DNA from: Paludibacteraceae bacterium | GTDB taxonomy: Bacteria; Bacteroidota; Bacteroidia; Bacteroidales; Paludibacteraceae | Assembly (NCBI GenBank): GCA_017503075.1 | Contig: JAFVTU010000015.1 | Span: 1-36,070, forward strand | Length of the DNA stretch: 36,070 nt | Direction: 5' to 3' | In this document: positions 8,555 through 28,250 of the stretch, piece by piece | How positions within the stretch are numbered: position 1 is the first letter of the stretch | Layout of the letters: each line of letters opens with the position of its first letter | Translations under genes and position numbers: made by a program | Notes under the pieces: model-generated | The model's input: the letters and a program-made list of their open reading frames with translations, nothing else | Databases searched by the model: none | What the model was told of the DNA's origin: nothing

Positions 8555-8584
8555 AGGATGCTGGATGCCGAACGCCGGATGCTA
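8555..8584 (+). repeat. Word array at the lepB/wbqC junction
   Basis: Three imperfect copies of a GGATGC(T/C) word (GGATGCT, GGATGCCGAACGCC, GGATGCT) fill the gap between the lepB stop and the likely WbqC start. It reads through in frame, creating spurious upstream starts. Confidence 0.6.
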
Positions 8585-8587
8585 AGA

Positions 8588-9121: not shown

Positions 9122-10155
9122 ATATAGACTGGAATAAACTGACATTTCACTATACCGAGACGGACTATATCGTTCGTGCGGCATGTAAGAATGGTGTATG
9201 GGAGCGCCCCTATGCCACGCGCGACAAGATGATTCCTATCCATGCCGCAGCCACGGGTCTGCACTATGGTCAAGAGTGCTTCGAAGGGCTAAAGGCCTTT
9301 CGTGGTGTGGACGGTAAGGTGCGTATCTTCCGCATGGAAGAGAACGCCAAACGCATGTACCATTCAGCCGAAGGACTACTGATGACACCCGTGCCCATAG
9401 AACTTTTTTGCGAAGCTATTTTGCTGGCATTGGAGAAGAATATCGCTTTCCTTCCTCCCTACGAGACAGGTGCTACACTCTATTTCCGTCCGTTATTGGT
9501 AGCTACTACACCCGATATTAGCGTTGGACCTGGCAAAGACTGCGAGTTTGTAGTCATCCCTACACCTATCGGTCCTTACTTCCCCAATGGATTCAAAGGT
9601 ATGCCCGCTATAGTCAACCGCACAGTTGATCGTGCAGCATCGCAAGGTACGGGTTGCTGGAAAGTCGGAGGCAACTATGCTGCCTCTTTCCGTGCTAGCG
9701 AAGTAGCGCATGCCATGGGATATGAGTGCATGTTCACCGATGCCAAAACACATAAGTATATTGACGAATGTACAGCATCCAATTTTATTGGAATAAAAGA
9801 GATTAAAAGCGAAAGGTTAGAGGCTAAAGGCTGGGAATATATTACGCCGCGTTCAAACGCTATCTTACCAAGTATCACCAACGACTCGTTGATGACCCTA
9901 GCAAGAGAGATGGGGATTAAGGTCACTCGCCGTCGCATCCGTGTAGATGAATTAGCTGATCTACAAGAGGCGGCTGCTTGCGGTACAGCATGCGTAATTT
10001 CTCCCCTAACTAAAGTCGTTGATCCCGATAATAATATTACTTATATCTTCGGCGACAAACCCGGTCATATCTTAACGAAACTCTATCACGCTTTGCAAGA
10101 CATCCAATACGGAAGAGTAGAAGATAAGCACGGTTGGTGTACAATTATAGAGTAA
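9118..10155 (+). CDS. ilvE: Branched-chain amino acid aminotransferase
   Basis: A 345-residue PLP enzyme (fold type IV) that transfers amino groups between glutamate and the keto acids of Leu, Ile and Val. The Schiff-base Lys is in WKVGGNYAASFRA; other class IV landmarks are HYGQECFEGLKAFRG near the N-terminus, the phosphate-binding EL...SNFIG region (DECTASNFIG), and ACGTACVISPL near the C-terminus. Length is typical. Between GIK and YITPRSNAILPSIT lies EIKSERLEAKGWE, encoded by a tandem AAAGG word array (9801-9835). My recollection is that homologues run directly from GIK into the YVTP segment, so this looks like a loop insertion. It is the last gene before a terminator. Confidence 0.95.
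   Translation: MNIDWNKLTFHYTETDYIVRAACKNGVWERPYATRDKMIPIHAAATGLHYGQECFEGLKAFRGVDGKVRIFRMEENAKRMYHSAEGLLMTPVPIELFCEAILLALEKNIAFLPPYETGATLYFRPLLVATTPDISVGPGKDCEFVVIPTPIGPYFPNGFKGMPAIVNRTVDRAASQGTGCWKVGGNYAASFRASEVAHAMGYECMFTDAKTHKYIDECTASNFIGIKEIKSERLEAKGWEYITPRSNAILPSITNDSLMTLAREMGIKVTRRRIRVDELADLQEAAACGTACVISPLTKVVDPDNNITYIFGDKPGHILTKLYHALQDIQYGRVEDKHGWCTIIE
9801..9835 (+). repeat. In-frame AAAGG-type word array inside ilvE
   Basis: TTAAAAGCGAAAGG, TTAGAGG, CTAAAGG, CTGGG. The same vocabulary is present at 17582-17622, 18874-18902 and 25579-25612. It encodes a charged IKSERLEAKG loop. Confidence 0.65.
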
Positions 10156-10182
10156 TCTGCTGATTTTAAGGGCATGTTAAAT

Positions 10183-10222
10183 TAGGAGCTAGCTATTTTT
10201 TGAGCTGGCTCCTATTATTTTT
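10183..10222 (+). terminator. Rho-independent terminator after ilvE
   Basis: A 12-bp stem (10183-10194 with 10203-10214, one G-U pair) has a T-rich 8-nt loop and is followed by TTATTTTT. It ends the lepB-wbqC-ilvE unit. Confidence 0.88.
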
Positions 10223-10230
10223 GCACTTTA

Positions 10231-10262
10231 TTTGCATATATGCAATTTTTTTTGTACCTTTG
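10231..10262 (+). promoter_or_regulatory. Promoter of the POT transporter operon
   Basis: TTTG (10231-10234), 20 nt, TACCTTTG (10255-10262). The expected transcript has a leader of about 55-60 nt before the ATG at 10326. Confidence 0.9.
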
Positions 10263-10325
10263 CGCGTTATTTTGTGCGTAACTAGAGCAAAAACTAATAT
10301 TAACCATAAAAAAACGAACTTATTT

Positions 10326-11852
10326 ATGTTTGAAAATCAACCTAAAGGTCTGTTTGCATTGGCACTTGCCAACACAGGCGAACGATTTGGCTACTACACC
10401 ATGTTAGCCGTATTTGCACTCTTCCTCCGTGCTAACTTCGGATTGGAAGCTGCTACTGCAGGACAAATCTATTCTACCTTCCTTGCGTTGGTATATTTCT
10501 TGCCACTCGTAGGCGGTATCTTGGCTGATAAGATTGGCTACGGCAAGTGCGTGACCATCGGTATCATGGTAATGTTCCTCGGATACATTCTGCTGGCTAT
10601 TCCATTGGGTGCAGGTGGCACCGCTATGGGCGCGATGATTGCTGCATTGGTACTCATCAGTTTCGGTACTGGTTTGTTCAAGGGTAACTTACAAGTAATG
10701 GTAGGTAATCTCTATGATGATCCTAAATACGCAGACAAGCGCGATGCGGCTTTCTCACTCTTCTACATGGCAATTAATATTGGTGCGATGTTCGCTCCTA
10801 CCGCAGCCGTGAAGATCATGGATTGGGCACAAACTAGTCTTGGCGTGAGCGTGAACGACAGTTATCACTTCGCGTTCATGGTTGCTTGCGCATCATTGAT
10901 ACTCAGTATCGTCATCTACTACGCTTGCCGTCCTTGGTTTAAGCACGTAGAGAACTCTGCTAAGCAAGCAGCTGCTACTGGTGCAAAAGTAGAAGAACTG
11001 ACCCCAGAGCAAACCAAAAAGCGTATCGTGGCTCTCTGCCTCGTGTTCGCTGTGGTAATCTTCTTCTGGATGGCATTCCACCAAAACGGTTTGACCCTTA
11101 CCTACTTCGCTAACGAGTTCGTACAACCACTCTGCACTGGCGTACAAACCATGTGGTTTGACATCATCAACCTTGTGATGATTGTCATCATCGTATATGC
11201 AGGTTTCTCATTGGTACAAAGCAAGACTACTAAAGCAAAAGTATTCTCTGGCGTGGCTATCGCGGCTGCATTGGGCGTATTGGCATACAAGTACCTCCAT
11301 ATCTCTCCAGAAGGAATCACCTTGAGCGCACCTATCTTCCAACAGTTCAACCCATTCTACGTAGTAGCACTCACTCCATTCAGCATGGCACTCTTTGGTG
11401 CACTCGCTAAGAAAGGCAAAGAGCCATCTGCTCCACGCAAGATTGCGCTGGGTATGGTGGTGGCTACTATCGCCTATATCGTGATGGCTGTAGCTTGTGT
11501 TGGTCTGCTCACTCCTAACGCACAAGAGTTGGCTCGCGTAACGGGTGACCCAACCTTCGTGAATGCTAACGTACTCATCTACACCTACTTGATTCTTACC
11601 TTCGCTGAGTTGCTTCTCAGCCCAATGGGTATCTCCTTCGTGACCAAAGTGGCTCCTCCAAAATACAAAGGTATGATGATGGGTGGCTGGTTTGTGGCTA
11701 CCGCCATCGGTAACTACCTCGTTTCTATTGGTGGTAACCTATGGGGCGACATGCCTTTGTGGGGCGTATGGAGCGTATTCGTAGGCGTTTGCGCTGTGGC
11801 TGCCATCTTTATGTTCGCAATGATGAAGAAACTCGAAGACGCAACGAAGTAA
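10326..11852 (+). CDS. POT/PTR family proton-dependent peptide transporter
   Basis: A 508-residue inner-membrane transporter for di- and tripeptides of the proton-dependent oligopeptide family (MFS fold). The start is the ATG at 10326 (MFENQPKGLFALALANTGERFGYYTM); longer in-frame starts would lie upstream of the promoter. The N-terminal ERFGYY corresponds to the ExxERFxYY proton-coupling motif, here with Asn-Thr-Gly before Glu. GGILADKIGYGK is the conserved loop 2-3 motif. The GTGLFKGNLQVMVG and ALFGALAKKGK regions and the late AELLLSPMGISFVTKVAPPKYKG motif are also family features. It leads the long plus-strand run. Confidence 0.93.
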   Translation: MFENQPKGLFALALANTGERFGYYTMLAVFALFLRANFGLEAATAGQIYSTFLALVYFLPLVGGILADKIGYGKCVTIGIMVMFLGYILLAIPLGAGGTAMGAMIAALVLISFGTGLFKGNLQVMVGNLYDDPKYADKRDAAFSLFYMAINIGAMFAPTAAVKIMDWAQTSLGVSVNDSYHFAFMVACASLILSIVIYYACRPWFKHVENSAKQAAATGAKVEELTPEQTKKRIVALCLVFAVVIFFWMAFHQNGLTLTYFANEFVQPLCTGVQTMWFDIINLVMIVIIVYAGFSLVQSKTTKAKVFSGVAIAAALGVLAYKYLHISPEGITLSAPIFQQFNPFYVVALTPFSMALFGALAKKGKEPSAPRKIALGMVVATIAYIVMAVACVGLLTPNAQELARVTGDPTFVNANVLIYTYLILTFAELLLSPMGISFVTKVAPPKYKGMMMGGWFVATAIGNYLVSIGGNLWGDMPLWGVWSVFVGVCAVAAIFMFAMMKKLEDATK

Positions 11853-11853
11853 T

Positions 11854-11897
11854 ACAATATTGAACTATTTTGAACAATATTGAACCATGTTGAACGA
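11854..11897 (+). repeat. Word array spanning the start of the coiled-coil gene
   Basis: Four imperfect copies of an ~11-nt (A/T)ATTTTGAAC-type word: ATATTGAAC, TATTTTGAAC, AATATTGAACC, ATGTTGAACG. The last copy supplies the ATG start codon and the first residues (MLNE) of the next gene. Confidence 0.65.
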
Positions 11898-12621
11898 AAA
11901 TTTAATTCAAGCAATAACCGACTACACGACCGCTCTGGAGCAGAAACTCTCTGCTCTGGAGGCGCGTGTGGCGCAACTCGAAGAAGCCAATGAGGCAATG
12001 AGGCGAGAAGGCGATGAGGCGAAAGCCTTGATAGCAACCTTGCAAGCCGAAGTGGCTGCATTGGCAGCTACAGGTGCTGTAGCTGCGCAAGCCGCAGAAC
12101 CAGAAGTAGAGATCGAACTCATCGTGGAAGAAGAAACCGAAAGTGAAAACGAAGAGGTGACAACTGAAAACGAGCTCGCAGAAGAACCAGTAGAAGAACC
12201 ACAAGAGGAAGTTCAAGCAGAACTAGAAACGCTGGATATTATAGATACTCCAGAGGTAGAAGCACCGGTTGTAGAAGAACCAGTTGTAGCGCCAGCACCT
12301 GCTCCACAACCAGAAGCAACGGCAGAGCCAGTGGCAGAACCTACACAACCACGACACAACGCTACACAACCTCTCCAAACTTCGCTCTTTGGTCCCGCTG
12401 TAGAGGACATCCGTCAAGCGATCTCTTTGGGTGACCGTTTCCTCTTCCAACGCGAACTCTTTGCAGGCAATGGTGAGTTGATGCAAAAGACACTCGACGA
12501 AATCAATGGCCTCGGTTCGCTCAACGAAGCAATGGACTATGTACTTGACAACTTCGATTGGGACAAAGAGTCCACCGCAGTACAACTCTTCGAGAATGTA
12601 CTCAAAAGACGCTTTGCTTAA
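11887..12621 (+). CDS. Coiled-coil protein with acidic linker and conserved C-terminal domain
   Basis: A 244-residue protein I cannot assign to a named family. Residues ~10-60 are heptad-rich and predicted to coil (LEQKLSALEARVAQLEEANEAMRRE). Residues ~70-170 are a very acidic Glu/Val/Pro/Ala linker. Residues ~172-244 form a compact C-terminal domain beginning VEDIRQAISLGDRFLFQRELF and ending WDKESTAVQLFENVLKRRFA, a domain I associate with uncharacterised Bacteroidetes proteins. There is no signal peptide, so it is probably cytoplasmic. Part of the linker (TQPRHNATQPLQ) comes from a CTACACAAC word array. It lies between the POT gene and rsmI. No function is claimed. Confidence 0.8.
   Translation: MLNENLIQAITDYTTALEQKLSALEARVAQLEEANEAMRREGDEAKALIATLQAEVAALAATGAVAAQAAEPEVEIELIVEEETESENEEVTTENELAEEPVEEPQEEVQAELETLDIIDTPEVEAPVVEEPVVAPAPAPQPEATAEPVAEPTQPRHNATQPLQTSLFGPAVEDIRQAISLGDRFLFQRELFAGNGELMQKTLDEINGLGSLNEAMDYVLDNFDWDKESTAVQLFENVLKRRFA
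12340..12381 (+). repeat. In-frame CTACACAAC word array
   Basis: CCTACACAACC, ACGACACAACG, CTACACAACC, TCTCCAAAC. It encodes the end of the Pro-rich linker of the coiled-coil protein and shares its word with the dapB array at 5981-6030. Confidence 0.55.
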
Positions 12622-12648
12622 ACTGAAAATTGAAAACTGAAAACGGAA
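12622..12648 (+). repeat. Word array between the coiled-coil gene and rsmI
   Basis: CTGAAAATTGAAAA, CTGAAAACGGAAA: a (C/T)TGAAAA word of 8-9 nt repeated three times fills the whole 27-nt spacer. Confidence 0.6.
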
Positions 12649-13320
12649 ATGCTCTACGTAGTACCTACACCCGTTGGCAATCTTGAGGACATCACTTTTC
12701 GTGCGCTCCGCGTACTGAAAGAAGTGGACCTCATTCTTGCTGAAGATACCCGCACCTCATCCGTGCTGCTCAAGCACTACGATATCCATACGCCGCTCAA
12801 AAGCCATCATAAGTTCAACGAGCATGAGACAAGCGACGATATGGCCAATCGTATTGCTGCGGGCATGACTGTGGCACTTATTTCCGATGCAGGTACACCC
12901 TGTATCTCCGACCCAGGGTTTATGTTGGTGCGTGCCTGCGTAGAGCGCGGTGTAGAAGTACAATGTCTGCCTGGAGCAACGGCCTTCGTGCCCGCATTAG
13001 TCAATTCGGGATTGCCTAACGACCGCTTTTACTTCGAGGGATTTCTCCCACAGAAGAAAGGTCGCCAAACACGCATGAAGATTCTTGCCGAGCAGACACA
13101 TACGATGATTATCTACGAATCGCCCTTCCGCTTGGTCAAGACACTGGAGCAATTGGCAGAGGTGATGGGCGGCGAACGCCGAGCAAGCGTCAGCCGCGAA
13201 ATTAGCAAACTGCACGAAGATACCCAACGAGGCACACTACTTGAATTGGCAGCGCACTACAAACAAACGCCACCCAAAGGCGAAATTGTACTTGTTGTGG
13301 AAGGCAAAAACGAAAAGTAA
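12649..13320 (+). CDS. rsmI: 16S rRNA (cytidine1402-2'-O)-methyltransferase
   Basis: A 223-residue SAM-dependent enzyme of the tetrapyrrole-methylase fold that 2'-O-methylates C1402 in the decoding centre of 16S rRNA. Signatures are VPTPVGNLEDITFRAL at the start, LILAEDTRTSSVLLKHY, LISDAGTPCISDPGF around 85-99, and CLPGATAFVPALVNSGLPNDRFYFEGFLP. It is shorter than the E. coli protein because it ends after the methylase domain. It starts at the ATG right after a TGAAAA word array and is probably translated as part of the plus-strand operon. Confidence 0.95.
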   Translation: MLYVVPTPVGNLEDITFRALRVLKEVDLILAEDTRTSSVLLKHYDIHTPLKSHHKFNEHETSDDMANRIAAGMTVALISDAGTPCISDPGFMLVRACVERGVEVQCLPGATAFVPALVNSGLPNDRFYFEGFLPQKKGRQTRMKILAEQTHTMIIYESPFRLVKTLEQLAEVMGGERRASVSREISKLHEDTQRGTLLELAAHYKQTPPKGEIVLVVEGKNEK

Positions 13321-13324
13321 TTTA

Positions 13325-13359
13325 TCCTGAAGATATCCCGAAGATACCCCGAAGATAGT
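13325..13359 (+). repeat. Word array between rsmI and the first flippase
   Basis: Three copies of a CC(T/C)GAAGATA word with small spacers: CCTGAAGATAT, CCCGAAGATAC, CCCGAAGATAG. It fills the 44-nt intergenic gap. Confidence 0.65.
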
Positions 13360-13364
13360 GAGAT

Positions 13365-14879
13365 ATGAGCAGTAATCTGCAAATGAAAATATTGGCTAAA
13401 GAAACCGCCATTTATGGCGTCTCATCCATTGTAGGCAAGTTTCTCAACTGGCTGCTCGTTCCGCTATACACATACGTGCTGCAACAGCAGTCAGATTATG
13501 GTATCGTGACCAACCTATATGCATGGACAGCACTATTGCTAGTGATTCTCACCTACGGTATGGAAACGGGTTTCTTCCGCTTTGCCAACAAAACCGAAGA
13601 AAATCCTAAAACGGTTTATAGCACTTCGCTCATCACGCTGTTTACCACTTCACTGCTCTTCGCTGTAGCATGCACCATTTGGCGAACGCCAATAGCCAAC
13701 GCATTGGGATACCCTACGCACAGCGAGTTTATTGCATTATTAGGCATCGTAGTAGCAATGGATGCCTTCGCTAGTATTCCATTTGCATACTTGCGCTATA
13801 AGAAACGCCCTTTGCAATTCGCTGCGCTCAAACTCCTATTCGTATTCCTCAATATCACCCTCAATCTATTCTTCCTCGTACTTTGTCCGAAGATTCAGGA
13901 TTGGGCAATCATCTCCTCATGGTACAATCCCAACTATGGAGTAGGGTATGTCTTCGTGGCAAATATCTTGGCTACGGGCATACAAACACTATGTTTGTTA
14001 CCAGCGATATTTGAGGGCTTTAAAAATGAGCACGGACTCCCGGCTTCCAACTCCCGACGACTCTTCTCAGGTGACCTTCTCAAGCAAATGCTTCGCTACT
14101 CGTTGCCCCTCTTGGTTTTGGGTGTGTGCGGTATCATGAACCAAACGCTCGATCGTATCCTCTTCCCATTCTTCTATGACGGAGCCGATGCGCAAGCGCA
14201 GTTAGGTATCTACGGAGCCTGCTTCAAAGTGGCGATGGTAATGATGATGTTCACCCAAGCATTCCGCTACGCCTACGAACCCTTTGTCTTTGCCAAACAC
14301 AAAGACCGCGAATCCGTAGCTGCCTATGCAGATGCAATGAAGTACTATATCATCTTCTCCTACATGATTCTCTTGGGGATGATTTTCTACCTCGACCTAC
14401 TGAAGTTTATTATCGCTCCTTCCTATTGGGAAGGACTAAAAATCGTACCAGTAGTCCTCTGGACATATATCTTCCAAGGCGTGTATTTCAACCTCAGCTT
14501 CTGGTACAAACTCACCGATAAAACGCAATGGGGCGCCTACTTCTCCATCATCGGCGTGGTGATTACCTTCGCATTGCAAGCTATTTTCGTGCCACGAATT
14601 GGATATATGGCTTCCGCAGCCAGCAGTACTGTATGCTATTTCGTGATTATGCTGCTGTCCTATTTCGTGGGACGCAAACACCTCGAGATACCATACGATT
14701 TGCGCCGAATTGGCATATATACCCTACTTGTAGTGACACTTTTGGCAGGATATTACACTTTGGCACACTTATTGCCAATCAATGAATGGATGAAAATGGG
14801 TATAGGCACTATACTCCTTATTATATATTGTGTCATTTTCTACCGTTTGGATGGAAAGACGCTCATTAAGAAGAAATAA
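13365..14879 (+). CDS. Polysaccharide (Wzx-type) flippase, MATE/MOP superfamily
   Basis: A 504-residue integral membrane protein with about 12-14 hydrophobic helices. It resembles lipopolysaccharide/oligosaccharide flippases that move undecaprenyl-linked glycans to the periplasm. The N-terminus KETAIYGVSSIVGKFLNWLLVPLYT is characteristic of the family, as are LYAWTALLLVILTYGMETGFFRF and the central LRYSLPLLVLGVCGIMNQTLDRI. A hydrophilic loop, EHGLPASNSRRLF, is encoded by an ACTCCC word array. No glycosyltransferase or polymerase gene is nearby, so the substrate cannot be inferred. A second flippase lies 2.5 kb downstream. Confidence 0.88.
   Translation: MSSNLQMKILAKETAIYGVSSIVGKFLNWLLVPLYTYVLQQQSDYGIVTNLYAWTALLLVILTYGMETGFFRFANKTEENPKTVYSTSLITLFTTSLLFAVACTIWRTPIANALGYPTHSEFIALLGIVVAMDAFASIPFAYLRYKKRPLQFAALKLLFVFLNITLNLFFLVLCPKIQDWAIISSWYNPNYGVGYVFVANILATGIQTLCLLPAIFEGFKNEHGLPASNSRRLFSGDLLKQMLRYSLPLLVLGVCGIMNQTLDRILFPFFYDGADAQAQLGIYGACFKVAMVMMMFTQAFRYAYEPFVFAKHKDRESVAAYADAMKYYIIFSYMILLGMIFYLDLLKFIIAPSYWEGLKIVPVVLWTYIFQGVYFNLSFWYKLTDKTQWGAYFSIIGVVITFALQAIFVPRIGYMASAASSTVCYFVIMLLSYFVGRKHLEIPYDLRRIGIYTLLVVTLLAGYYTLAHLLPINEWMKMGIGTILLIIYCVIFYRLDGKTLIKKK
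14035..14062 (+). repeat. In-frame word array inside the first flippase
   Basis: GACTCCCGGCTTCC, AACTCCCGACGACT: a (G/A)ACTCCCG word repeated twice, with a GGCTTCC variant between. It encodes GLPASNSRR in a cytoplasmic-type loop. Confidence 0.5.
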
Positions 14880-14881
14880 CT

Positions 14882-15499: not shown

Positions 15500-15504
15500 A
15501 CGAA

Positions 15505-16089: not shown

Positions 16090-16113
16090 TAACATATAAA
16101 ATATAGTATTAAA

Positions 16114-17367: not shown

Positions 17368-17370
17368 ATC

Positions 17371-18894
17371 ATGGGCATCATCGCCAAACAAAGTATACAA
17401 GGTACCATCGTCACCTATCTTGGGGTGGCGGTGGGCTTTGTTACTACGTTCTTCGTGCTTACCCGATTCCTCACAGCTGAGGAGATTGGGTTAGCACGTG
17501 TATTGGTGGATGCTGCCACACTCTTTATCGGACTAGCTCAACTCGGCACTTCGTCTTCTATCATCCGCTTCTATCCGCATTTTAAGGTGAAAGGTGAGGG
17601 GGGAAAGGTGAAAGGTGAGAACTCCGATCATGGTTTCTTTTTCTGGACACTGATTGTTCCACTCGTAGGTTTTGCTCTATTTGCTGCTATTTACTGTGCA
17701 TGTCACGAACCGCTAAGTCAATGGTTTGGCGAGAAGTCACCGCTCTTTGTAGAGTACTACTATATGGTACTACCCATGGCATTCTTTATGCTTTATCAAA
17801 CCATATTCGAAACTAATGCCAATGTACGTATGCATATTGTAGTGCCTCGTGCAGTGCGCGAACTCATCACTCGTATTGGGCTACTCATCGTCTATTTGCT
17901 CTACGCTTTCCGCGTAGTGGATATCAATGGTTTTGTAGTGGCATTGTGCAGTGTATATGCTGTTGCGATGTTATGCAATTTAGGTTATCTCTTCTCGCTA
18001 GGTGAAATATCCTTGCGTCCTGATTGGAATTTCCTCAGCAATAATCGTCAATTAATACGCCAGTACTTGCTATATACTGGCTTTTTGCTCGTTTCTGCAG
18101 TGGCGTCAGTCTTAGCTCCGACGCTCTCTTCTTTCTTTATCACAGCTGAAATGGGTCTTTCGTATACAGGCATTTTTGCTATTGCCACCTATATAGCAGT
18201 GATGGTCAGTATTCCTTATCGTTCTATGACTGCTATCGCTTCGCCACAATTAGCAACCGCGATTAAGGAGAATAACCAACAGGAAACTGCTCATCTCATA
18301 CAGCAAGTCAGTAGCACCCTACTGCTTATTGGTGGATTGATCCTCTGTATCATTTGGCTCAATATTGATCTTATCTTCCATATTTTACCCAATGGCGAAA
18401 CATACGTAGCAGCCCGCCAAGTGGTTTTGATGTTAGGTACAAGCCAACTCATAATTGCTGTTTGTTCGTTTAGTTCTTCTGCACTCAACTATTCGCGTTT
18501 CTATGCCTTCTCCTTGTTATTTTCATTTATCCTAACCACCTTATCCATCTTGCTCAATAATCTCCTCATTCCTCATTTCGGTATGAATGGAGCAGCAGTA
18601 AGCAACCTTATTGCTTATGCAATATACTTCCTATTTATTATTCTGACAGTCCGTTTCGCGCTACATGCGCCTACTTTCACGCGCCAGCATCTAAAGATTC
18701 TATTGCTGATTCTGGTGATACTTAATTTGAATTTCCTATGGCAGGAGTACATGCCTATCAATAATATATGGTTTAGCAGTATCATTCGTACTATAGTCCT
18801 TATCGGAGGAGGTTGTGGCGTAGCATGGTACAAGAACCTTTCGCCCGAAATCAACCAACAGGTGCGAAAGTTTTGGTTAAAGGTTAAAGGTTAA
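17371..18894 (+). CDS. Polysaccharide flippase, second copy (MATE/MOP superfamily)
   Basis: A 507-residue multi-helix membrane protein. The family N-terminus is IAKQSIQGTIVTYLGVAVGFVTTFFVLTRFL, followed by GLAQLGTSSSIIRFYPHF. It shares overall architecture with the 13365 flippase but not close sequence. Directly after RFYPHF is KVKGEGGKVKGENSDHG, encoded by an AAGGTGA word array; relatives have a short polar loop here. The extreme C-terminus FWLKVKG is encoded by a second array of GTTAAAG words that also contains the stop codon. Its substrate is unknown and no glycosyltransferases are adjacent. Confidence 0.88.
   Translation: MGIIAKQSIQGTIVTYLGVAVGFVTTFFVLTRFLTAEEIGLARVLVDAATLFIGLAQLGTSSSIIRFYPHFKVKGEGGKVKGENSDHGFFFWTLIVPLVGFALFAAIYCACHEPLSQWFGEKSPLFVEYYYMVLPMAFFMLYQTIFETNANVRMHIVVPRAVRELITRIGLLIVYLLYAFRVVDINGFVVALCSVYAVAMLCNLGYLFSLGEISLRPDWNFLSNNRQLIRQYLLYTGFLLVSAVASVLAPTLSSFFITAEMGLSYTGIFAIATYIAVMVSIPYRSMTAIASPQLATAIKENNQQETAHLIQQVSSTLLLIGGLILCIIWLNIDLIFHILPNGETYVAARQVVLMLGTSQLIIAVCSFSSSALNYSRFYAFSLLFSFILTTLSILLNNLLIPHFGMNGAAVSNLIAYAIYFLFIILTVRFALHAPTFTRQHLKILLLILVILNLNFLWQEYMPINNIWFSSIIRTIVLIGGGCGVAWYKNLSPEINQQVRKFWLKVKG
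17582..17622 (+). repeat. In-frame AAAGG-type word array inside the second flippase
   Basis: AAGGTGAAAGGTGAGG, GGGGAAAGGTGAAAGGTGAG: two near copies of AAAGGTGAAAGGTGAG encode KVKGEGGKVKGE. Confidence 0.7.
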
Positions 18895-18902
18895 AGGCAA
18901 GG
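18874..18902 (+). repeat. GTTAAAG word array at the flippase/truA junction
   Basis: Three tandem copies of the 7-nt unit GTTAAAG (GGTTAAAGGTTAAAGGTTAAAGG in 18875-18897, then CAAGG) encode the last residues and stop of the flippase. Confidence 0.7.
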
Positions 18903-18905
18903 ATT

Positions 18906-19694
18906 ATGCGCTATTTTATTCGCTTTGCATACGATGGCACCGCTTTTCATGGCTCGCAACGCCAGCCTAACGGCATTACTGTTCAAGAGACGATGGAGCA
19001 GGCGTTTGCTATGATTTTCCGCGAGGAGATACCGCTTACTTTCGCTGGTCGTACCGATGCGGGTGTCCATGCCCGTGAGATGTATGCGCATTTCGATTTA
19101 CCTAGCCAATATCCAATAGGCGAAACGCCGTCCAATAGCCCAATAGGGCGTCCTATACCTCCTAATTTGGTCTTCCGTCTTAATGGTATTCTGCCCGATT
19201 CTATCGCGATTTATGATATTTACCCTGTGAAAGATGATGCGCATGCACGCTTTGATGCAGTGCGTCGTACCTATGAGTATCATATTGTAGATTACAAAGA
19301 TCCTTTCCTCTGCCAACAAGCAACACGCGTACGCCTAGGATTGGATTTTGATGCCATGAACGAGGCAGCTCAATTGTTGATTGGCAAACAGGACTTTGCT
19401 TCATTCTGTCGCACAAATACGGATGTGAAAACTACTACTTGCGATCTCACGCATGCCGAATGGCGAGAATTGGGTAATGGACATGCCGTCTTCACCATTT
19501 CGGCAGATCGTTTCCTACGCAATATGGTGCGTGCGGTAGTGGGGACACTATTTGAAGTTGGTCGTGGCAAAATGACCAAAGAGCAGTTTGCTGAGGTTAT
19601 TGCTCAGCACAATCGATGTGCCGCAGGCGATTCCGCACCTGCTGAAGGATTATATCTGACTAAGGTTGAATATCCCAAAGAATTATTTTTGTAG
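18906..19694 (+). CDS. truA: tRNA pseudouridine(38-40) synthase
   Basis: A 262-residue enzyme that isomerises uridine to pseudouridine at positions 38-40 in the anticodon arm of tRNAs. The catalytic Asp51 is in FAGRTDAGVHA, and the RNA-binding FAYDGTAFHGSQRQPN is at the N-terminus. The second-half motifs FASFCRTN and FLRNMVRAVVGTLFEVGRGK are complete. After AHFDLP comes SQYPIGETPSNSPIGRPIPPN before LVFRLNGILPDSIAI. Homologues have only a few residues there; the extra segment is encoded by a CCAATAG word array (19105-19160). The active site is intact, so the enzyme is probably functional. Confidence 0.95.
   Translation: MRYFIRFAYDGTAFHGSQRQPNGITVQETMEQAFAMIFREEIPLTFAGRTDAGVHAREMYAHFDLPSQYPIGETPSNSPIGRPIPPNLVFRLNGILPDSIAIYDIYPVKDDAHARFDAVRRTYEYHIVDYKDPFLCQQATRVRLGLDFDAMNEAAQLLIGKQDFASFCRTNTDVKTTTCDLTHAEWRELGNGHAVFTISADRFLRNMVRAVVGTLFEVGRGKMTKEQFAEVIAQHNRCAAGDSAPAEGLYLTKVEYPKELFL
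19105..19160 (+). repeat. In-frame CCAATAG word array inside truA
   Basis: CCAATATCCAATAGGCG, then AAACGCCGTCCAATAG, then CCCAATAGGGCG, then TCCTATACC. A CCAATAG core is repeated three times, with GGCG/CGCC half-sites that could pair. It encodes a Pro/Ser-rich loop after AHFDLP. Confidence 0.7.
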
Positions 19695-19712
19695 AAATAA
19701 ATTTATATACCT

Positions 19713-22700
19713 ATGAAAAGATCTTTCTCTATTTTAATGGTTGGACTAATATGTTGTGCCAATCCTATTATTGCCGATGTTACTTTCCGCGTGAATGTGC
19801 CTGCAGGTACTACCCATTGTTATGTAGTAGGTGCACTTCCCGAACTTAGTAGTTGGGCTGCCGGGGCTGGCGTTGCCATGACAAAAGTGGAAGGAATGGA
19901 CCAGTTTACCGTCACGGTAGCAGGTATTACTACTGCTGATATTAGTGCATCCGATGGATATAAATACGTCTGCGGACCCGATTGGAAATACGTAGAGGTC
20001 ACTGCTTCTGATGGTGAGGTAGCCAACCGCAAGACCGTTGGTAATCCCGATGTTGTAGCACGCTGGCGAAACACCTATACTGCCGTTGGAATCGTAGAGA
20101 AGTGGACATTTGCAGGCAAGGATTATCCTGTACAAATCCTCTTGCCTACCAACTATGACAATACCAAGCAATACCCAGTAACCTATATGTTCGGTCGCCA
20201 CCAACGCTATCGCGATGCGGGTTCCGATACTGAAATGGGTGACCGTATTCTCTATTCTGACTCATGGGGAGTGGCAGAATCTGTGACAGAACTAGAAAAA
20301 GAAGGTGTTGAGGTAGGAATTATTGCCGTCATCTATGCCCAACTACCCGAATTTACTCCATGGACAAACGAGGAGTATATGGGTACAGGCAGAGCAGATG
20401 CTTTCCTCAAGGGATTTGTAGAAGAGTTCAAACCTGCTTTCGAACAGAAATATGCGATTTCATCGGACAAAGCAGCATGCACTATCATGGGAGCAGATGT
20501 GGCAGGTTTATTTGCATTCTATGCTACTATGAAGTTCCCAGATAAGTTTGGTGAGTGTGTGATGTACTCGCCTGCTTTTTGGTACAATCGTCAAGAAATG
20601 CGCGGTTTCATCGAGAACGAGAGACTTACGCCAACCGACACACGTTTTGTTTTCGTACAGACATCTTCTGATACCCAATGGATAACCGATGAGATTGATT
20701 ACTACACTCAGTGGTTGTCTAGTCACGGATATTATCCTAGTCATTTGGAATTTACGGGTGAGCACGATGATCGCACATGGGGAGAAGCATTCAAAGCAGT
20801 CGTAGGTGAACTCCCAGTTGTTGCAGGAATGGGGCAATATGCATCGAATAAGGTGGTAGCAGATTATACTGCCAATACATGGTACTTTATGAAGGGCGAA
20901 GGTACTACTTCGCTCACCTGCGATGGCACACCTACACAAAAGGGCAACTTCTACAAAGATGGAAAGACTGCCACTCCCGCACAACTATTGATTAAGGAGA
21001 TCCCTGTGGATAAAAAGAAATATAGCTACTACTGGAATCTCAATAGCGGTAGCAACTGCGATGGCGATTTGCTGATGGCATCGCCAAAAGATATTGGTTT
21101 CAAAGACTCTCGAAAAACTACCTCTTGGCAGCGTGTAGCAGTGTTTGCAGATGGCAGTTACGAGCAATCAGCTGCTTCTGCGGAGCATTTCAAAGTCAAT
21201 GGCACCACCATGACCATTGGCAGTAACTACGAATTGACAGCCACCATCTCCCTCACTGATGACAAGACTGTTTCTGTGCACTATGGTAGTGTGAACTCGG
21301 GTAGCGACATGGGCGAATTGGTCAGCACAAGCGTATCAGCCAACTGCCTCAAAGCCAATGTCCGTTACTCCTATCTGACCAACCAACTCACGGTAGAGGA
21401 GACTGCATGGGGCAGTTCGGATATTGACTTGGAATACTTCAAGGTGGAGCCTGCTGTCGTACACCCAGGCACTCCTGTAAAAATGTCGGTGAAGATTACC
21501 AATAAAAATGGCTACAATGTCAATTTCCGCATGAATCATAACAACCAATCTTCTTCTGCTATCACCCTCAGCAAAGGCAACAATGGCGAGGAGTATTACA
21601 CGATTTCATCGCCAGAAAGTGGTATTTATGGTTTCTATTTGGACATCGAACTCAACGGGATAACCACCAAAGCGCACCGTGCGGTATATGTCAAGGTAGT
21701 GGAGGGACAAACTATTACTCCTGCTATATCCAACAACCCATACGCAGATATTGATTGGACTACTATCAACCAATTCAAGGGCAATTTCCATACACATACT
21801 ACCCAATCCAACGATGCTAGCGACGGTTTTACTACTGCCTACGTAGTGGACAAATACCATGCGGCGGGTTATAAGATTCTGTCCCTTACTGACCACGATT
21901 ACAATCCATATCCATGGGAGTTGTTCCCACAATATATGAGTACCGTGCCTGCACGCGATCCTGCTGCATTGGGTATGTTAGCTGTACCAGGCAACGAGCT
22001 CAGTAAGGATAATACCAACAGTTGGAGCGAACGTACAGGCGGACAATTCAACCACCACAATGATTTCTTCACAGGTCGCCAAGGACAGGAGTTTGCTTCC
22101 TTACAGGAGTCGTACGCGTACACCTACGCCCTCGGTGGCATGCAAATTATCAATCACCCAGGACAGTATTGGAGCATTGACAATACCTATAGCGAGACGC
22201 AAAAAGATGGTCCTGGTTGGCATGCAACCAATTTCGAAACCTTCCCATCATTGATTGGATTGGAAGTTTATAATCAAGGCAACCGTCGTCCTAACGACCG
22301 TATCCTATGGGATCAAATATTGCAACGCACTATGCCTCATCGTCCTGTATATGGCTATTCCTGCGATGATGCACACAATAACGACCAACTCTTCCGCAAC
22401 TACAATTTCATGCTTATGGAGGATCTAACTACCGATGAATTGAAAGATGCCATGCGAAAGGGTGAGAGTTATTTCTGCTACGAGCCAGCAGGTACAGGCG
22501 AAGCCAAAGCCCCTCGCATCTCATCTATCAAAGTAGATGAAACGGCACAAACTATTACCATCGAAGCCAATGGACTGGTACATTGGATTTATGCCACGGA
22601 CAAGACTTCCAGCGCAGCATCTTCTGCGCGCAGCACTGTGGTGGGCATAGGTAATACCTTCTGCTATGCAGGTTATCAAGGTTCGTATGTACGCGCATTC

Positions 22701-23015
22701 ATCACCAATGTGTTTGGCGAAACATGTACTCAACCTATCAGTTTTGCAGATGAGAAGACGGTAGATGTAGATAATATATCTGTGGAGAATCGTTTAGCAT
22801 TACTGCTATATCCTAATCCAGCTAATGCATATTTGAATGTGTTTATGAATGCTTACGAGCAAGAGGATATGATTAATATCTATGATGTTAATGGCAAACT
22901 ACTGATTACTACATCGGTAGGTGGAGCAGTGACAAATGTGCCAGTAGAATCTTTATCTACAGGCATGTACATCGTGCGCGTTGGAGAGCGCATTGGTAAA
23001 TTCTTTAAGGAATAG
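19713..23015 (+). CDS. Large T9SS cargo: starch-binding-like, esterase-like and PHP domains
   Basis: An 1100-residue secreted protein. Residues 1-21 are a signal peptide (IIA-DVTF). Residues ~22-105 resemble a CBM20-type starch-binding module (VTFRVNVPAGTTHCYVVGALPELSSW). Residues ~125-385 resemble the esterase D-type alpha/beta hydrolase fold, but the nucleophile elbow is GADVAG, with Asp in place of the expected Ser in GLSMGG. Residues ~685-930 form a PHP metallo-phosphoesterase-like domain: NFHTHT, SLTDHD, VPGNELS, NHPGQYW and CDDAH supply plausible metal ligands. Residues ~1028-1100 are a type A T9SS sorting domain (LLLYPNPANAYLNVF ... GMYIVRVGERIGKFFKE). It is probably exported to the surface. 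Substrate unknown. Confidence 0.85.
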   Translation: MKRSFSILMVGLICCANPIIADVTFRVNVPAGTTHCYVVGALPELSSWAAGAGVAMTKVEGMDQFTVTVAGITTADISASDGYKYVCGPDWKYVEVTASDGEVANRKTVGNPDVVARWRNTYTAVGIVEKWTFAGKDYPVQILLPTNYDNTKQYPVTYMFGRHQRYRDAGSDTEMGDRILYSDSWGVAESVTELEKEGVEVGIIAVIYAQLPEFTPWTNEEYMGTGRADAFLKGFVEEFKPAFEQKYAISSDKAACTIMGADVAGLFAFYATMKFPDKFGECVMYSPAFWYNRQEMRGFIENERLTPTDTRFVFVQTSSDTQWITDEIDYYTQWLSSHGYYPSHLEFTGEHDDRTWGEAFKAVVGELPVVAGMGQYASNKVVADYTANTWYFMKGEGTTSLTCDGTPTQKGNFYKDGKTATPAQLLIKEIPVDKKKYSYYWNLNSGSNCDGDLLMASPKDIGFKDSRKTTSWQRVAVFADGSYEQSAASAEHFKVNGTTMTIGSNYELTATISLTDDKTVSVHYGSVNSGSDMGELVSTSVSANCLKANVRYSYLTNQLTVEETAWGSSDIDLEYFKVEPAVVHPGTPVKMSVKITNKNGYNVNFRMNHNNQSSSAITLSKGNNGEEYYTISSPESGIYGFYLDIELNGITTKAHRAVYVKVVEGQTITPAISNNPYADIDWTTINQFKGNFHTHTTQSNDASDGFTTAYVVDKYHAAGYKILSLTDHDYNPYPWELFPQYMSTVPARDPAALGMLAVPGNELSKDNTNSWSERTGGQFNHHNDFFTGRQGQEFASLQESYAYTYALGGMQIINHPGQYWSIDNTYSETQKDGPGWHATNFETFPSLIGLEVYNQGNRRPNDRILWDQILQRTMPHRPVYGYSCDDAHNNDQLFRNYNFMLMEDLTTDELKDAMRKGESYFCYEPAGTGEAKAPRISSIKVDETAQTITIEANGLVHWIYATDKTSSAASSARSTVVGIGNTFCYAGYQGSYVRAFITNVFGETCTQPISFADEKTVDVDNISVENRLALLLYPNPANAYLNVFMNAYEQEDMINIYDVNGKLLITTSVGGAVTNVPVESLSTGMYIVRVGERIGKFFKE

Positions 23016-23029
23016 TTTAGAGGCGAGTA

Positions 23030-23686
23030 TTATTGCTTCAAGAACATTAATAGTTCTGTCATTGAATTGAAGACTTGGTCCGCTTGGGCTAAGTCTTCGC
23101 GTGTAAGAATACCCGTATTCACCGCATAAACGGTTAGTCCTGCTGCTTTGCCAGCGCGAATACCCAATGGTGCATTTTCGATGACAAAACATTTCTCTTT
23201 TGGGAGTCCAGAACGCTCCCAAGCTTTTAGATATGGCTCAGGGTCGGGTTTGCCATGTGTGACATCAAAAGCAGTAATCATTCTATCGCGCTGGAAGATA
23301 TTGGGAAATACGGCATGCAGGCTATCAATCAATGTGCGCTGTCCACTACCCGTCACGACCCAAATTTGATGCCCACATGACTGTACATATTGCAGTACAT
23401 CTGCTACGTTAGGGATAGGATATGCCTCGCCCAATTGATGAAAGTATGCAGACTTCTCCGCATAGATTTGCTCGATTTCATCAGGCCTAGCATCGCGATT
23501 GCGAGCTTTCCACATGGCCTCACGGATAACAGATTCACCTGTGCGACCTTCATTGATATAGCAATCGCGTGCCGTGAAAGATAAGCCATGTTTTTTCATA
23601 ACTTCTTCCCATGCGATAGCATGATGGGGCATTGAATCGAACAACACCCCATCCATGTCAAAGAAATATGCTTGTTGGTTTGCCAT
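23030..23686 (-). CDS. HAD superfamily phosphatase, beta-phosphoglucomutase-like
   Basis: A 218-residue HAD hydrolase, subclass I with helical cap. Catalytic motif I is FFDMDGVLFDS (nucleophile Asp10, acid/base Asp12), motif II is VVTGSGQ, the motif III Lys is in THGKPDPEPY, and motif IV is VIENAPLGIRAG. The family removes or transfers phosphate on small sugars such as glucose-1-phosphate or 2-deoxyglucose-6-phosphate; the substrate is unknown. The start codon overlaps the stop of the DUF4301 gene by one base (TAATG), implying coupled translation. It is convergent with the T9SS gene, with only 14 nt between stops and no visible terminator. Confidence 0.9.
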   Translation of the reverse strand: MANQQAYFFDMDGVLFDSMPHHAIAWEEVMKKHGLSFTARDCYINEGRTGESVIREAMWKARNRDARPDEIEQIYAEKSAYFHQLGEAYPIPNVADVLQYVQSCGHQIWVVTGSGQRTLIDSLHAVFPNIFQRDRMITAFDVTHGKPDPEPYLKAWERSGLPKEKCFVIENAPLGIRAGKAAGLTVYAVNTGILTREDLAQADQVFNSMTELLMFLKQ

Positions 23687-25023
23687 TATTGATGCTCAGC
23701 GCGAAGCAAATCATTTACTGTTTTTACCGGATTGAAGGTGGATACGGGCACCTCTACGAAAATCGTGTTCCAGCGGCTCATAGCTCCATTCCATAGACCG
23801 GGTAACTCTAATGCTAACAAATCTTTACCATCTTTTGATTTGTGCGATATAAAGCCCGTCTTTTCATCTACAAAGTCAGGTAGATTATATGGTTTGCCCT
23901 CGACATCGCGGGTAGCGCACACGAGATCTACAGGGTTGAAGTGGGTAGCTTGTTGCATAAGTGCAGGGTCAGAGATTTGGCTAGATTCTAATATCTGGCA
24001 AGAGATGCTACCATCAGCTTCACGTACAAGGAATGGTCCACCACCAGGCTCACCTGTATTTTTTACCACACCACATACGCGCAATGGACGTGCCAAACGC
24101 GCACGCTCCTCAGCACTGAGGTTAGGATCTTGCAATTTCTCAAATACTTTCTTTTGCTCTGTAACCAATACACCTGCAAGCAGTTGCTTGTAGCGAACGG
24201 TATCGCCTTTGAGACGGTCTGGCACTACATTGTCAATATTCTTGATGAATATGATGTCTGCCGATTGCTCGTTGAGGTTTTCAATCAACGCACCATGTCC
24301 ACCTGGTCGGAAGAGCAGTTTGCCATCTGCGGTACGGAATGGTGTGCCATCGGGATTAGCAGCCAGTGTATCGGTAGAAGGCTTTTGTTCGGAGTAGGAT
24401 ACGTGGAACTTAACACCTAATTTTGCTTCGTATGCAGATAGGTTTTCTGCAATATGTGCTTGGAACAGAGGCAGATGCTCGTGGCTAACTGTGAAATGAA
24501 TATTTACTTCTCCCTTAGAAGCTGCGTACATCGCCCCTTCTACAAGATGCTCTAGTGCTGGAGTACGAGGACCATCTTCGTAAGAATGGAAGAGTAGCAA
24601 GCCCTTAGGTAGGTTGCCATAGTTCATATCTTTGAGCAAATGCGAGACTGCGGCTTGTTCGTCTAGATTAGCAAGTTGAGGACCAAAGGCAAAATGGTCT
24701 TTTTCCGTCAAGAATTTCTCGATGAAATCGGTCTTTTTGCCATCTTCTAAGTACTCAAACAAGTATTTAAACATGCGGCTTGCCGCTCCACTAGCTGGTA
24801 CGAACTTTAGGACGGTATGTCCCTCATCAAGATAATCTTGCCACGCCTTTACGTAGGCATCGATTTCTTCTTCAGATGGGTTAAGAACTCCGTTTCCAAC
24901 CGAAGCGGCTGAAACGATGTCTAATTCTGGGAAACCAGTAGCAAATGACTGGAGTTGTTTTTCGGCTTTCTCTATAGAAATACCGCGTGCCTCAAGTTGG
25001 GCTAAGTCAGATTGTGTAAACAT
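23686..25023 (-). CDS. DUF4301 family protein, nucleotidyltransferase-like
   Basis: A 445-residue cytoplasmic protein matching DUF4301, a family largely confined to Bacteroidetes. It resembles UDP-sugar pyrophosphorylases in fold-level motifs: FVPASGAASRMFKYLF as a possible nucleotide-binding loop, LFRPGGHGALIENLN, and IIFIKNIDNVVPD. No activity has been shown to my knowledge, so sugar-nucleotide chemistry is inference. It is followed by a HAD phosphatase in a one-base stop/start overlap, consistent with a two-step sugar-phosphate job. A consensus promoter lies 22 nt upstream of its start. Confidence 0.9.
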   Translation of the reverse strand: MFTQSDLAQLEARGISIEKAEKQLQSFATGFPELDIVSAASVGNGVLNPSEEEIDAYVKAWQDYLDEGHTVLKFVPASGAASRMFKYLFEYLEDGKKTDFIEKFLTEKDHFAFGPQLANLDEQAAVSHLLKDMNYGNLPKGLLLFHSYEDGPRTPALEHLVEGAMYAASKGEVNIHFTVSHEHLPLFQAHIAENLSAYEAKLGVKFHVSYSEQKPSTDTLAANPDGTPFRTADGKLLFRPGGHGALIENLNEQSADIIFIKNIDNVVPDRLKGDTVRYKQLLAGVLVTEQKKVFEKLQDPNLSAEERARLARPLRVCGVVKNTGEPGGGPFLVREADGSISCQILESSQISDPALMQQATHFNPVDLVCATRDVEGKPYNLPDFVDEKTGFISHKSKDGKDLLALELPGLWNGAMSRWNTIFVEVPVSTFNPVKTVNDLLRAEHQ

Positions 25024-25045
25024 GGTATTGGGTGTTTTCTGTGTG

Positions 25046-25077
25046 CAAAGGTACTACATTTTTTTTGTTTATGCAAG
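25046..25077 (-). promoter_or_regulatory. Promoter of the DUF4301-HAD operon
   Basis: On the minus strand, CTTG (25074-25077), 20 nt, TACCTTTG (25046-25053). Confidence 0.88.
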
Positions 25078-25100
25078 AAACGTGCGAATTTTGTTATATA

Positions 25101-25733
25101 TCAGTCGCATAATGAGAAAAGATCTGCTCGTGGATTGACAAGCATTACTGGTACTGCACTATGTCGGATGACATATTGCTCTGGAGGACCAAAGAGCCAG
25201 TCATCTAATCCATACTCGCGGCTGGCGGTGAGGAGAATAAGCCCCCCTCTCATAGCCTCAGCAGGGTTCCCGGAAATGCTGGTGGCGTTTTGGGGTGCTC
25301 TATCGCCTAATAGCCTAATCACCTGATCGCCTACAATCTCTTTATGGATATGGAAACTATCGCCTTTGGCTACACGCTCCTCGTAGGTGATGGTTTCGCC
25401 TGTGCGTTCTGCAATGGTTTGGATATGCGTGATGATACGTTGGGTGTTCCGTTTGGCTTTGCTGCCGTAGTCGTTCGCGCGTAACAATATAAGGTGTGCC
25501 CCCGTCTTGCGAGCCAAGTAGGTACAAATCTCTGCTTTGTACACTTCCTCTTCGAGCATGGTCACAGGTACCAAAATTGAGGTTAAAGGTGAAAGGCTAG
25601 AGGTTAGAGGCGTGGTTATAACATACGGTCTTCGCTCTTCACGGCAAGCATCCAGCACACGCTGCACGTCGCGACGTGTTCCGTCGCAATGCTCTACACG
25701 AATATCTTCCGTATTTAGTATATCAAAATTCAA
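25101..25733 (-). CDS. Universal stress protein-like protein (degenerate N-terminal half)
   Basis: A 210-residue protein. From ILVPVTMLEEEVYKAEICTYLARK onward it reads as a UspA-type domain and ends GGLILLTASREYGLDDWLFGPPEQYVIRHSAVPVMLVNPR, the usual G-x9-G-S/T-like nucleotide-binding tail. The first ~50 residues look like the end of another domain, joined by PLTSSLSPLTS, which is encoded by an AAAGG word array on the opposite strand. A second array encodes VIRLLGDRAPQ. No ATG exists before residue 59; the best start is TTG at 25733, inside repeated TTTTGAAT words. Either a TTG start is used or the N-terminus has been remodelled. Confidence 0.7.
   Translation of the reverse strand: MNFDILNTEDIRVEHCDGTRRDVQRVLDACREERRPYVITTPLTSSLSPLTSILVPVTMLEEEVYKAEICTYLARKTGAHLILLRANDYGSKAKRNTQRIITHIQTIAERTGETITYEERVAKGDSFHIHKEIVGDQVIRLLGDRAPQNATSISGNPAEAMRGGLILLTASREYGLDDWLFGPPEQYVIRHSAVPVMLVNPRADLFSLCD
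25310..25342 (-). repeat. In-frame CCTAAT word array inside the UspA-like gene
   Basis: ATCGCCTAATAGCCTAATC, ACCTGATCGCCTA: a GCCTAAT word repeated with flanking ATCGCCTA. It encodes GDQVIRLLGDR. Confidence 0.5.
25579..25612 (-). repeat. In-frame AAAGG-type word array inside the UspA-like gene
   Basis: On the plus strand GAGGTTAAAGGTGAAAGG, then CTAGAGG, TTAGAGG, CG. It has the same vocabulary as ilvE and the second flippase, but in the opposite orientation to the gene, so it encodes PLTSSLSPLTS. Confidence 0.7.
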
Positions 25734-28112: not shown

Positions 28113-28250
28113 AATTTTTAATTCATAACTCTTAATTCATAATTCATAATTCTCAGTTACTTCCCCTTTACTTCCCCCTTACTTGCCACCTATCCGCATA
28201 GGAACTTCATAGGAACTTCATAGGGACTTCATAGGAACTTCGCCGTATGT
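28113..28250. repeat. Three consecutive word arrays upstream of cstA
   Basis: First, CTTAATTCATAA-type words (28114-28155). Second, TTACTTCCCC repeated (about 28155-28185). Third, a 15-16-nt unit (AGGAACTTCAT with an AGGGACTTCAT variant) in four copies (28198-28242). No consensus promoter or gene is visible in 28113-28294. Confidence 0.75.

Follow-up and report, generated by a model that had tools for sequence, protein, structure and literature searches.

The window analysed here is a stretch of 36,070 nucleotides, bases 1-36070 of contig C5 in the genome of a Paludibacteraceae bacterium (G000; other G numbers denote the genomes of the family or genus with which it was compared). This genome of 2.06 Mb lies in 30 contigs and is 99.55% complete, with 5.49% contamination. 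The window carries four tandem arrays of seven-base words of an AAAGG family, in ilvE, in the second flippase gene (two arrays) and in a UspA-like gene, together with hairpin units, a longer palindrome and repeat words of other kinds (Table 1). The proteins bearing arrays matched the Pfam families PF01063 (IlvE), PF01943 (flippase) and PF00582 (UspA). All four arrays had been described in an earlier note on this DNA and were found where it had placed them. Tandem Repeats Finder called 7-mer arrays at 17584-17618, 18875-18897 and 25579-25610; the ilvE array, which has just two clean heptads, was not called. The earlier note had also described the arrays as in-frame insertions in genes; those of IlvE, the flippase (first array) and UspA are in-frame internal segments. 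The remaining array (18874-18902) is a tail which supplies the stop codon: the flippase ends on the array's own TAA (18892-18894), and the array reaches the start of truA. This tail was also found in G213.

Table 1. Repeat features of the window, with positions, strand and remarks.
Feature	Position	Strand	Remark
AAAGG-family array in ilvE (gene 9118-10155)	9801..9835	+	sense, residues ~228-240
AAAGG-family array in second flippase (gene 17371-18894)	17582..17622	+	sense, residues ~73-84
AAAGG-family array spanning the flippase C-terminal tail with its stop, and most of the gap to truA	18874..18902	+	
AAAGG-family array in UspA-like gene (25101-25733, minus strand)	25579..25612	+	antisense to gene
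Hairpin unit TAG-stem-loop-GTCC in truA (18906-19694)	19117..19133	+	
Second hairpin unit in truA	19136..19153	+	
Longer palindrome-derived element RAPQNATSISGNPAEAMRG in UspA-like gene	25246..25301	-	in frame
GAGCCAAGAACAAA (7+7) words in gene 8546-9121	8971..9007	+	relatives differ at this place
10-mer array, spacer and start of gene 11887	11854..11897	+	
8-mer words ATGAGGCG/AGAAGGCG in gene 11887-12621	11985..12025	+	
AAACTGA-type heptads forming the spacer between two genes	12619..12651	+	
11-mer array in spacer	13319..13360	+	38 bp at 97% also at L051:7814-7851
CTGCTACACAAC-type words in gene 5726-6427	5987..6028	+	similar in G203; other sequence in G262, G306, G118
AATTCAT heptads, then 11-mer arrays, between ORFs	28107..28243		strand not assigned

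Alignment with homologues from relatives bore out the claim of lineage-specific insertion for the IlvE and flippase segments, which are in frame and lie at places that vary among relatives. The IlvE array is absent from G126, G260, G217 and G272, where a bare loop (NFIGIKGNEYLT or NFIGVKGNEYLT) is found instead. At the internal flippase site G126 reads PYFHEQDN, G247 reads PYFKERDSE, and G213 holds a related segment, KAKDERLEVTG. For UspA the claim could be compared in a single relative, G118, which has a different insert at the site; no site empty of an insert was seen in this one comparison. The absence of premature stops, which the earlier note had pointed out, is probably a survivor effect, because the sense heptads GGTTAAA, GGTGAAA and GGTTAGA each hold TAA, TGA or TAG in one of the three frames. 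A longer array in the sense direction therefore avoids stops only if its units are suitably mixed.

A genome-wide word count, with the backward-read pattern as control, placed these arrays in a much larger population than had been reported. The exact pattern GGYKARAGGYKARAGGYKARAGG (GGYKARA x3 + GG) occurs 63 times in G000 (36 + 27), compared with 0 + 0 for the reversed pattern, and AAAGGTTAAAGGTTAAAGG with up to 3 mismatches gave 54 + 55 hits compared with 2 + 0. Likewise, 33 period-7 arrays were counted in 395 kb of G000 sequence and none in a dinucleotide resample, the array density being biased upward since the sample was centred on AAAGG hits. Across the family, GGYKARA x3 + GG was present in 80 of 300 genomes and 5 of 33 genera, with counts from 0 to 163 among the genus genomes drawn. 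The reversed control itself reached 37 in G061, 40 in G272 and 11 in G220, which probably have yet another heptad vocabulary.

Placement was examined in 468,330 bases of G000 (38 stretches centred on hits, plus the window), which contained 53 distinct AAAGG arrays of at least 2 units with at most 1 mismatch. The arrays were sorted by the author against open reading frames (ORFs) of at least 150 aa, and not against the output of a gene caller. Twenty-two of the arrays in this hit-centred sample overlap such an ORF, either within it or at its C-terminal end (19 in sense, 3 in antisense); another 10 are found just ahead of the first ATG of one, and 21 elsewhere. Family searches covered 15 of the 22 overlapping arrays, in the three window proteins already named and in ten others, all ten of which matched NCBIfam models: RimO, AroC, MnmE, Ddl, CinA (two arrays), a 2-oxoacid oxidoreductase beta subunit, MurC, AroQ, LigA and AroA. 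The matches of AroA and the oxidoreductase subunit did not reach the curated cut-offs of the models shown, and in AroA the array is a weak match of two units. Arrays in the sense direction encode V/A-K-G-E-R-L/R-E/K, such as VKVKGERLEVKG in AroC and RRKVKGERLEVKGE in MnmE. Solved structures were aligned with all four enzymes searched. The alignments are gapped at the array for AroC (5z9a, 1r52) and MnmE (3gee), and AroQ shows a 13-residue gap immediately ahead of its array (6smf, 6hs8). For IlvE, 3uyy has an 8-residue gap at the array; the best match, 7lv7, has a loop of similar length.

Related species differ in the repeat words that they hold at one and the same position of a protein. IlvE was matched in 120 of 131 genus genomes, and its loop was read in 48 species, 30 of them best matches and 18 partly chosen for unusual length, which biases the filled share upward. 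The bare loop, NFIG[IV]KGNEYLT, was found in 4 species. The others contained AAAGG words (4), AAAGTCG words (10), CCC/GGG palindromes of several forms (10), CGAAGCGATCTA (3), GTCGCCGG (3), five other kinds in one species each, or short other sequence (9, including the divergent loop of G323, which has the same length as the bare one). Outside the genus, a 12-residue loop with no insert was found at all 8 loci read (of 19). The 12 classes among the 48 species, set by hand and counting 'empty' and 'short' as classes, need at least 25 changes on one IlvE tree, which came from a quick search with the loop left out, has 16 of 53 inner branches unsupported, and gives a count blind to gain versus loss. 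Some content is inherited: the position and length of the ilvE array are common to G000, G203 and G322, and the flippase tail to G000 and G213.

A second core enzyme behaves similarly. At residue 48 of AroC, read in the 30 best matches, 12 classes, 'none' and 'short' among them, require at least 14 changes, where the minimum possible is 11, and the AroC sites of G000 and G318 differ in length by exactly 21 bp, or three heptads. Arrays of the AAAGG family in AroC, too, are in frame at a place that varies among relatives. The earlier suggestion that repeat DNA spreads into tolerant sites is incomplete in that, in relatives, palindromes or words of other kinds occupy the positions in IlvE and UspA. 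A separate family of CCCTCCCTAAAGGGAAGGGAG-like palindromes was observed in the IlvE loop (loci L038, L041, L044, L045, L049, L073) and in the AroC loop (L162, L180, L188). All seven bare sites read (four IlvE and three AroC, the divergent G323 loop excluded) contain AARGG. This might be a seed for arrays, a lead only, since Lys-Gly codons alone yield AARGG. Judged from sequence, words appear to be inserted, lost or replaced repeatedly in spacers and core-enzyme loops of these ruminant-gut bacteria, with the frame unbroken. The 14 named relatives with IlvE 78-92% identical to that of G000 are all metagenome-assembled genomes; 12 are recorded as Paludibacteraceae bacterium from ruminant colon, cecum or rectum, and 2 as Bacteroidales bacterium.

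The AAAGG words, which the earlier note had treated as one vocabulary, are just one among many. In the 395 kb of G000 sequence, arrays of periods 7, 10, 11 and 14 numbered 33, 13, 22 and 22, while each other period from 4 to 15 gave 0-5 arrays and resampled DNA gave 0. Grouped by eye, G000 has about nine heptad families plus 8-, 9-, 10- and 11-mers. Moreover, 15 of 20 period-10 arrays use one vocabulary, compared with a largest random cluster of at most 2. In the window, content differs among relatives in truA, in genes 8546-9121 and 5726-6427, in spacers and in UspA (in G118 only). The truA insert, made of two hairpin units, is absent in G213, G197, G126 and G247 and replaced by other words in G118. 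Gene 8546-9121 has AATTCAA words in G203 and G118, and GGCAATG-type words in G306 and G316. The spacer before gene 11887 is a short TAATCTATG in G213, G318 and G118; G000 has 10-mer words there, and G203 has 10-mer arrays in inverted arrangement. The 8-mer words that follow recur inside aroC (35 bp at 97%, L053:10854-10888).

Further analysis addressed the units themselves. Among 94 interior heptads of G000, seeded with GGYKARAGG and kept at 4/7 matches to GGTTAAA (a procedure which favours fixed positions), positions 1, 2, 5 and 7 are near-fixed (G90, G90, A91, A89) and positions 3, 4 and 6 are split (T72/C16, T59/G33, A47/G44). This argues against neutral decay, because decay would strike all positions. 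Adjacent units are no more alike than permuted ones (identity 0.208 compared with 0.201 +- 0.037; 32 arrays, 133 canonical units). Since unit-by-unit slippage would make neighbours alike, this speaks against simple slippage in G000. The units of an array resemble one another less than expected in G250, G256 and G211, perhaps because identical neighbours were lost or because arrays in genes avoid stops. Each genome has its own dialect: identity between arrays was 0.333 within a genome and 0.187 between genomes (14 genomes, 93 arrays), a difference of 0.146, where the maximum in 5000 label permutations was 0.072. In addition, loci with no evident relation have composite stretches of 30-45 bp in common. 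An identical 45-bp composite of words and hairpin is found in ligA and at another locus ahead of an ORF start, and 32-33 bp match at 97% between the arrays of aroC, mnmE and the gene for the 2-oxoacid oxidoreductase.

The AAAGG arrays can tentatively be read as one dialect of a genus-wide population of short words that are repeatedly seeded, shuffled, expanded and lost by template switching and slippage under selection, a reading to which we give slightly less than an even chance. A nascent strand would end or stall during replication or repair and re-pair, through a short core (AnAGG for the AAAGG family), with another array of the same family, of which the genome has dozens. A few units would be copied before the strand switched back, so that units become mixed between loci. 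Positions required for re-pairing would stay fixed while three others float. Slippage would add or remove units, as in the 21 bp of AroC, and hairpin units may have originated by snap-back copying. Selection would clear most copies, and the survivors would lie in spacers, at gene ends and in loops where the insert has a length divisible by three and brings no stop. Template switching among dispersed arrays is favoured because of the fixed and floating positions, the neighbours that are no more alike than random, the dialect of each genome and the recurrent composites. The arrays, their degeneracy and dialects, the in-frame insertions and the turnover are observed; template switching and the filter by selection are inferred from them.

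Several observations weigh against this reading. No donor-recipient event was caught in the comparisons made, and the heptad selection described above favours fixed positions by itself. Across all within-array pairs of G000, identity was raised (0.254 compared with 0.201 +- 0.025, reached in 0.031 of permutations), and at lag 2 it was 0.319 compared with 0.202 (0.012), hinting at some local 14-bp duplication. Arrays in G199 and G278 are homogeneous within and different between loci (0.69 compared with 0.22 permuted, and 0.72 compared with 0.44), which is what slippage predicts. The 10-mer array at 11854 resembles growth from local ATGAACAATC. Period-11 arrays have little common vocabulary, their largest cluster holding 3 of 23 where random sets reach at most 2. 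Among period-7 arrays a cluster takes in 36 of 51, yet it lumps several families together and owes part of its size to the sampling (random mean 10.6, maximum 22). Template switching alone would not give the constant TAG and GTCC flanks of the hairpins, described below. Bolder, and in our judgement doubtful, is the view that the vocabulary renews itself, dispersed arrays swapping words and hairpins by ectopic template switching, evolving in concert as a dialect and rewriting core-enzyme loops by species. The 94 arrays of periods 7, 10 and 11 in 395 kb would, extrapolated from this biased sample, amount to a few hundred per genome.

The hairpin units raise a different explanation. They have the form TAG-[stem mostly 4-6, loop mostly 3-4]-GTCC, are mostly 16-21 bp long and punctuate word arrays. 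The 468 kb sample contains 66, whereas nine permutations of the right flank gave 2-17 and seven alternative left flanks gave 1-10; as perfect pairing is built into the search, the constant flanks are the evidence, and a few of the 66 resemble chance. The commonest form, TAGCCCNNNGGGCGTCC, was found in 13 of 131 genus genomes, with 29 copies in G000 and one reversed-pattern hit overall (G316), and its copies are concentrated in genomes whose IlvE lies close to that of G000 on the IlvE tree. A dedicated mobile element, in which an HUH/RAYT-like transposase (RAYT, REP-associated tyrosine transposase) acts on hairpin units and copies modules of word and hairpin, might account for them, in the manner of repetitive extragenic palindromic (REP) sequences. 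REPs are small hairpins of many copies with a constant tetranucleotide-like foot; they carry GTAG, which the TAG of the hairpin foot recalls. G000 encodes a protein of 369 aa with MPDHVHIL and a weak Y1_Tnp match (L196:754-1863, minus; G000:C5:66627-67733), and the identical 45-bp composite at two loci fits such copying.

The presence of this gene does not track the hairpin units, and the RAYT-like transposase was rejected as the driver. Y1_Tnp matched in 3 of 20 genomes, and relatives of the 369-aa protein were found in 12 of 18. No RAYT-like match at E 0.001 was obtained in G213, G256, G322 or G318 (94, 84, 81 and 62% complete, so three of these four are below 90%), which have 9, 21, 7 and 14 exact hairpin units, respectively, nor in G138 (98% complete, 90 AAAGG hits). 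Conversely, G126, G197 and G247 have a match and no exact hairpin unit. Unlike the constant flanks, the stems are not conserved (GCCC, GGCG, GCTCGC, GCGGC, GGCAC and others). Constant array ends and target-site duplications were not seen at the sites compared, which were not surveyed systematically. A mobile element of this kind is rather unlikely. The ORF adjoining the RAYT-like gene resembles, by reading and not by a family search, a restriction-specificity subunit.

The longer palindrome (CCCCAAAACGCC...GCGTTTTCGGGG type, about 50-56 bp) was found in UspA of G000, IlvE of G262 and AroC of G306, and is absent from UspA of G118. It is read in two frames, as RAPQNATSISGNPAE in UspA and RAPHNAASVIGDPAE in IlvE, and as EHPKTPRAFSGTPLRR in AroC of G306. 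The copies in UspA and in the G262 IlvE had at first pointed to one conserved reading frame, which the G306 AroC contradicted. Predicted RNA folding (z 0.57 for the UspA copy and -1.66 for the G262 copy) gave no ground for claiming a strong fold.

Ordinary local slippage, by which chance or inherited short words would expand in place and copies in loops and spacers survive, is an unlikely account of the whole. Heptamers are the commonest long simple repeat class in most genomes rich in such repeats, as reported in PMC4679880, and the 21-bp AroC difference between G000 and G318, the homogeneous arrays of G199 and G278, the slight within-array excess in G000 and the array at 11854 all fit slippage. 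It does not account for adjacent G000 units no more alike than random, for variation concentrated at three positions, for a period-10 vocabulary common to 15 of 20 arrays, for composite copies at unrelated loci, or for related species with different vocabularies at the same site. Selection keeping words as binding sites or RNA signals near starts, with genic copies as by-products, would suit near-fixed positions 1, 2, 5 and 7, the 10 of 53 arrays right before a first ATG and the TAACTGA repeats lying mostly immediately upstream of starts in one genome (reported by MacGregor 2015), and is very improbable in view of relatives with quite different words or none at the same spacer or loop and of genus counts spanning 0 to 163. 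Three further candidates were tried and rejected: loss of mismatch repair, since MutS_V, the sole family used, matched in 51 of 51 genomes (G313 with one weaker match); reverse transcriptase or telomerase-like synthesis, since RVT_1 gave 0 in G000 and 12 of 51 in the genus sample; and Ku end joining, since Ku matched in 0 of 18 genomes, in a search whose control matched 1 of 14 known genomes.

This population of words can be set beside known repeat systems. The likeness to REP/RAYT systems lies in small many-copy hairpins with a constant foot; variable stems and a RAYT-like gene that does not follow the hairpins set them apart. Short tandemly repeated repetitive (STRR) sequences of heterocystous cyanobacteria are tandem heptamers, and were compared by unit length alone; Calothrix heptanucleotides are mentioned in PMC4692102. 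Heptameric repeats are reported as TAACTGA in Beggiatoaceae, cyanobacteria and some Bacteroidetes (including two sets in Paludibacter propionicigenes), GGGAATC in Xanthomonas, where units are heterogeneous as well, and GGGGA(C/T)T in Nostoc. Those repeats and the present ones are seven-base tandem words, over-represented at many loci per genome and patchily distributed. The known ones are described there mainly from intergenic regions, whereas core genes hold many of the present arrays in frame, one genome combines several vocabularies and periods, and sister species hold other words at a site. Near-identical neighbouring units, as slippage makes them, were seen in G199 and G278 and not in G000.

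The earlier note had likened the arrays to Rickettsia palindromic elements (RPEs) of a different type, a comparison that is fair in outcome, though the arrays do not belong to the RPEs. RPEs are in-frame repeat DNA in many unrelated genes at fold-compatible positions, about 150 bp long and encoding a conserved peptide (PMC10969869). Here, too, insertion is in frame in protein genes at tolerated places. By comparison with RPEs, palindromic by name, the present arrays are non-palindromic direct repeats of 7 bp, the hairpin units are far shorter, and the longer palindrome is read in two frames. Sense arrays in genes have V/A-K-G-E-R-L/R-E/K in common, though stop codons narrow the sense choices. 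Invasion of genes by in-frame repeats has been described in Rickettsia, and heptamers in large numbers in other bacteria; no report joining heptamer words, Bacteroidales and core-gene insertion was found in the library searched, which lacks most subscription journals and all preprints. Overall, the earlier interpretation was partly supported.

Other observations were made in passing. Window positions 4570-4796, in the region of ORF 4398-4916, hold an imperfect 120-bp tandem duplication (1.9 copies, 74% matches). At 7377-7433, gene 7143-8549 has an in-frame segment, KPLTKEEEAAGKKNPDANS, in which no repeat word was seen; it is present with small changes in G318, G213, G203 and G262, altered in G118 and G316, and missing in G306, G126 and G247. 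Stretches of TTGTACCTTTGC type, which we take to be, probably, Bacteroidetes-type promoters, lie on either strand at 10222-10272, 28846-28878 and 30386-30469 and recur at many loci. A very long TGGAGTAGAATGGAGTAGAGG word array of about 170 bp was found at L154:929-1102, near G000:C19:43,500. Identical array stretches with a constant offset occur on two contigs, at about 2740-2852 of L064 (C21) and about 4753-4865 of L070 (C25); C25, of 9.8 kb, may duplicate C21 or represent it in another strain, consistent with the 5.49% contamination.

In these sister gut species, repeat DNA of different kinds occupies the same places in core enzymes, read in 48 species at one site and in 30 at another, which provides a natural series for studying the entry of new loop sequence into proteins. 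With near-fixed positions and words in mixed order, the mutational mechanism becomes testable. Loop insertions and deletions in this genus may hold little phylogenetic signal, and they may drag matches under family cut-offs, a possible reason for the low matches of AroA and the 2-oxoacid oxidoreductase beta subunit. If the vocabulary does renew itself, it would possibly be a standing source of in-frame loop variation.

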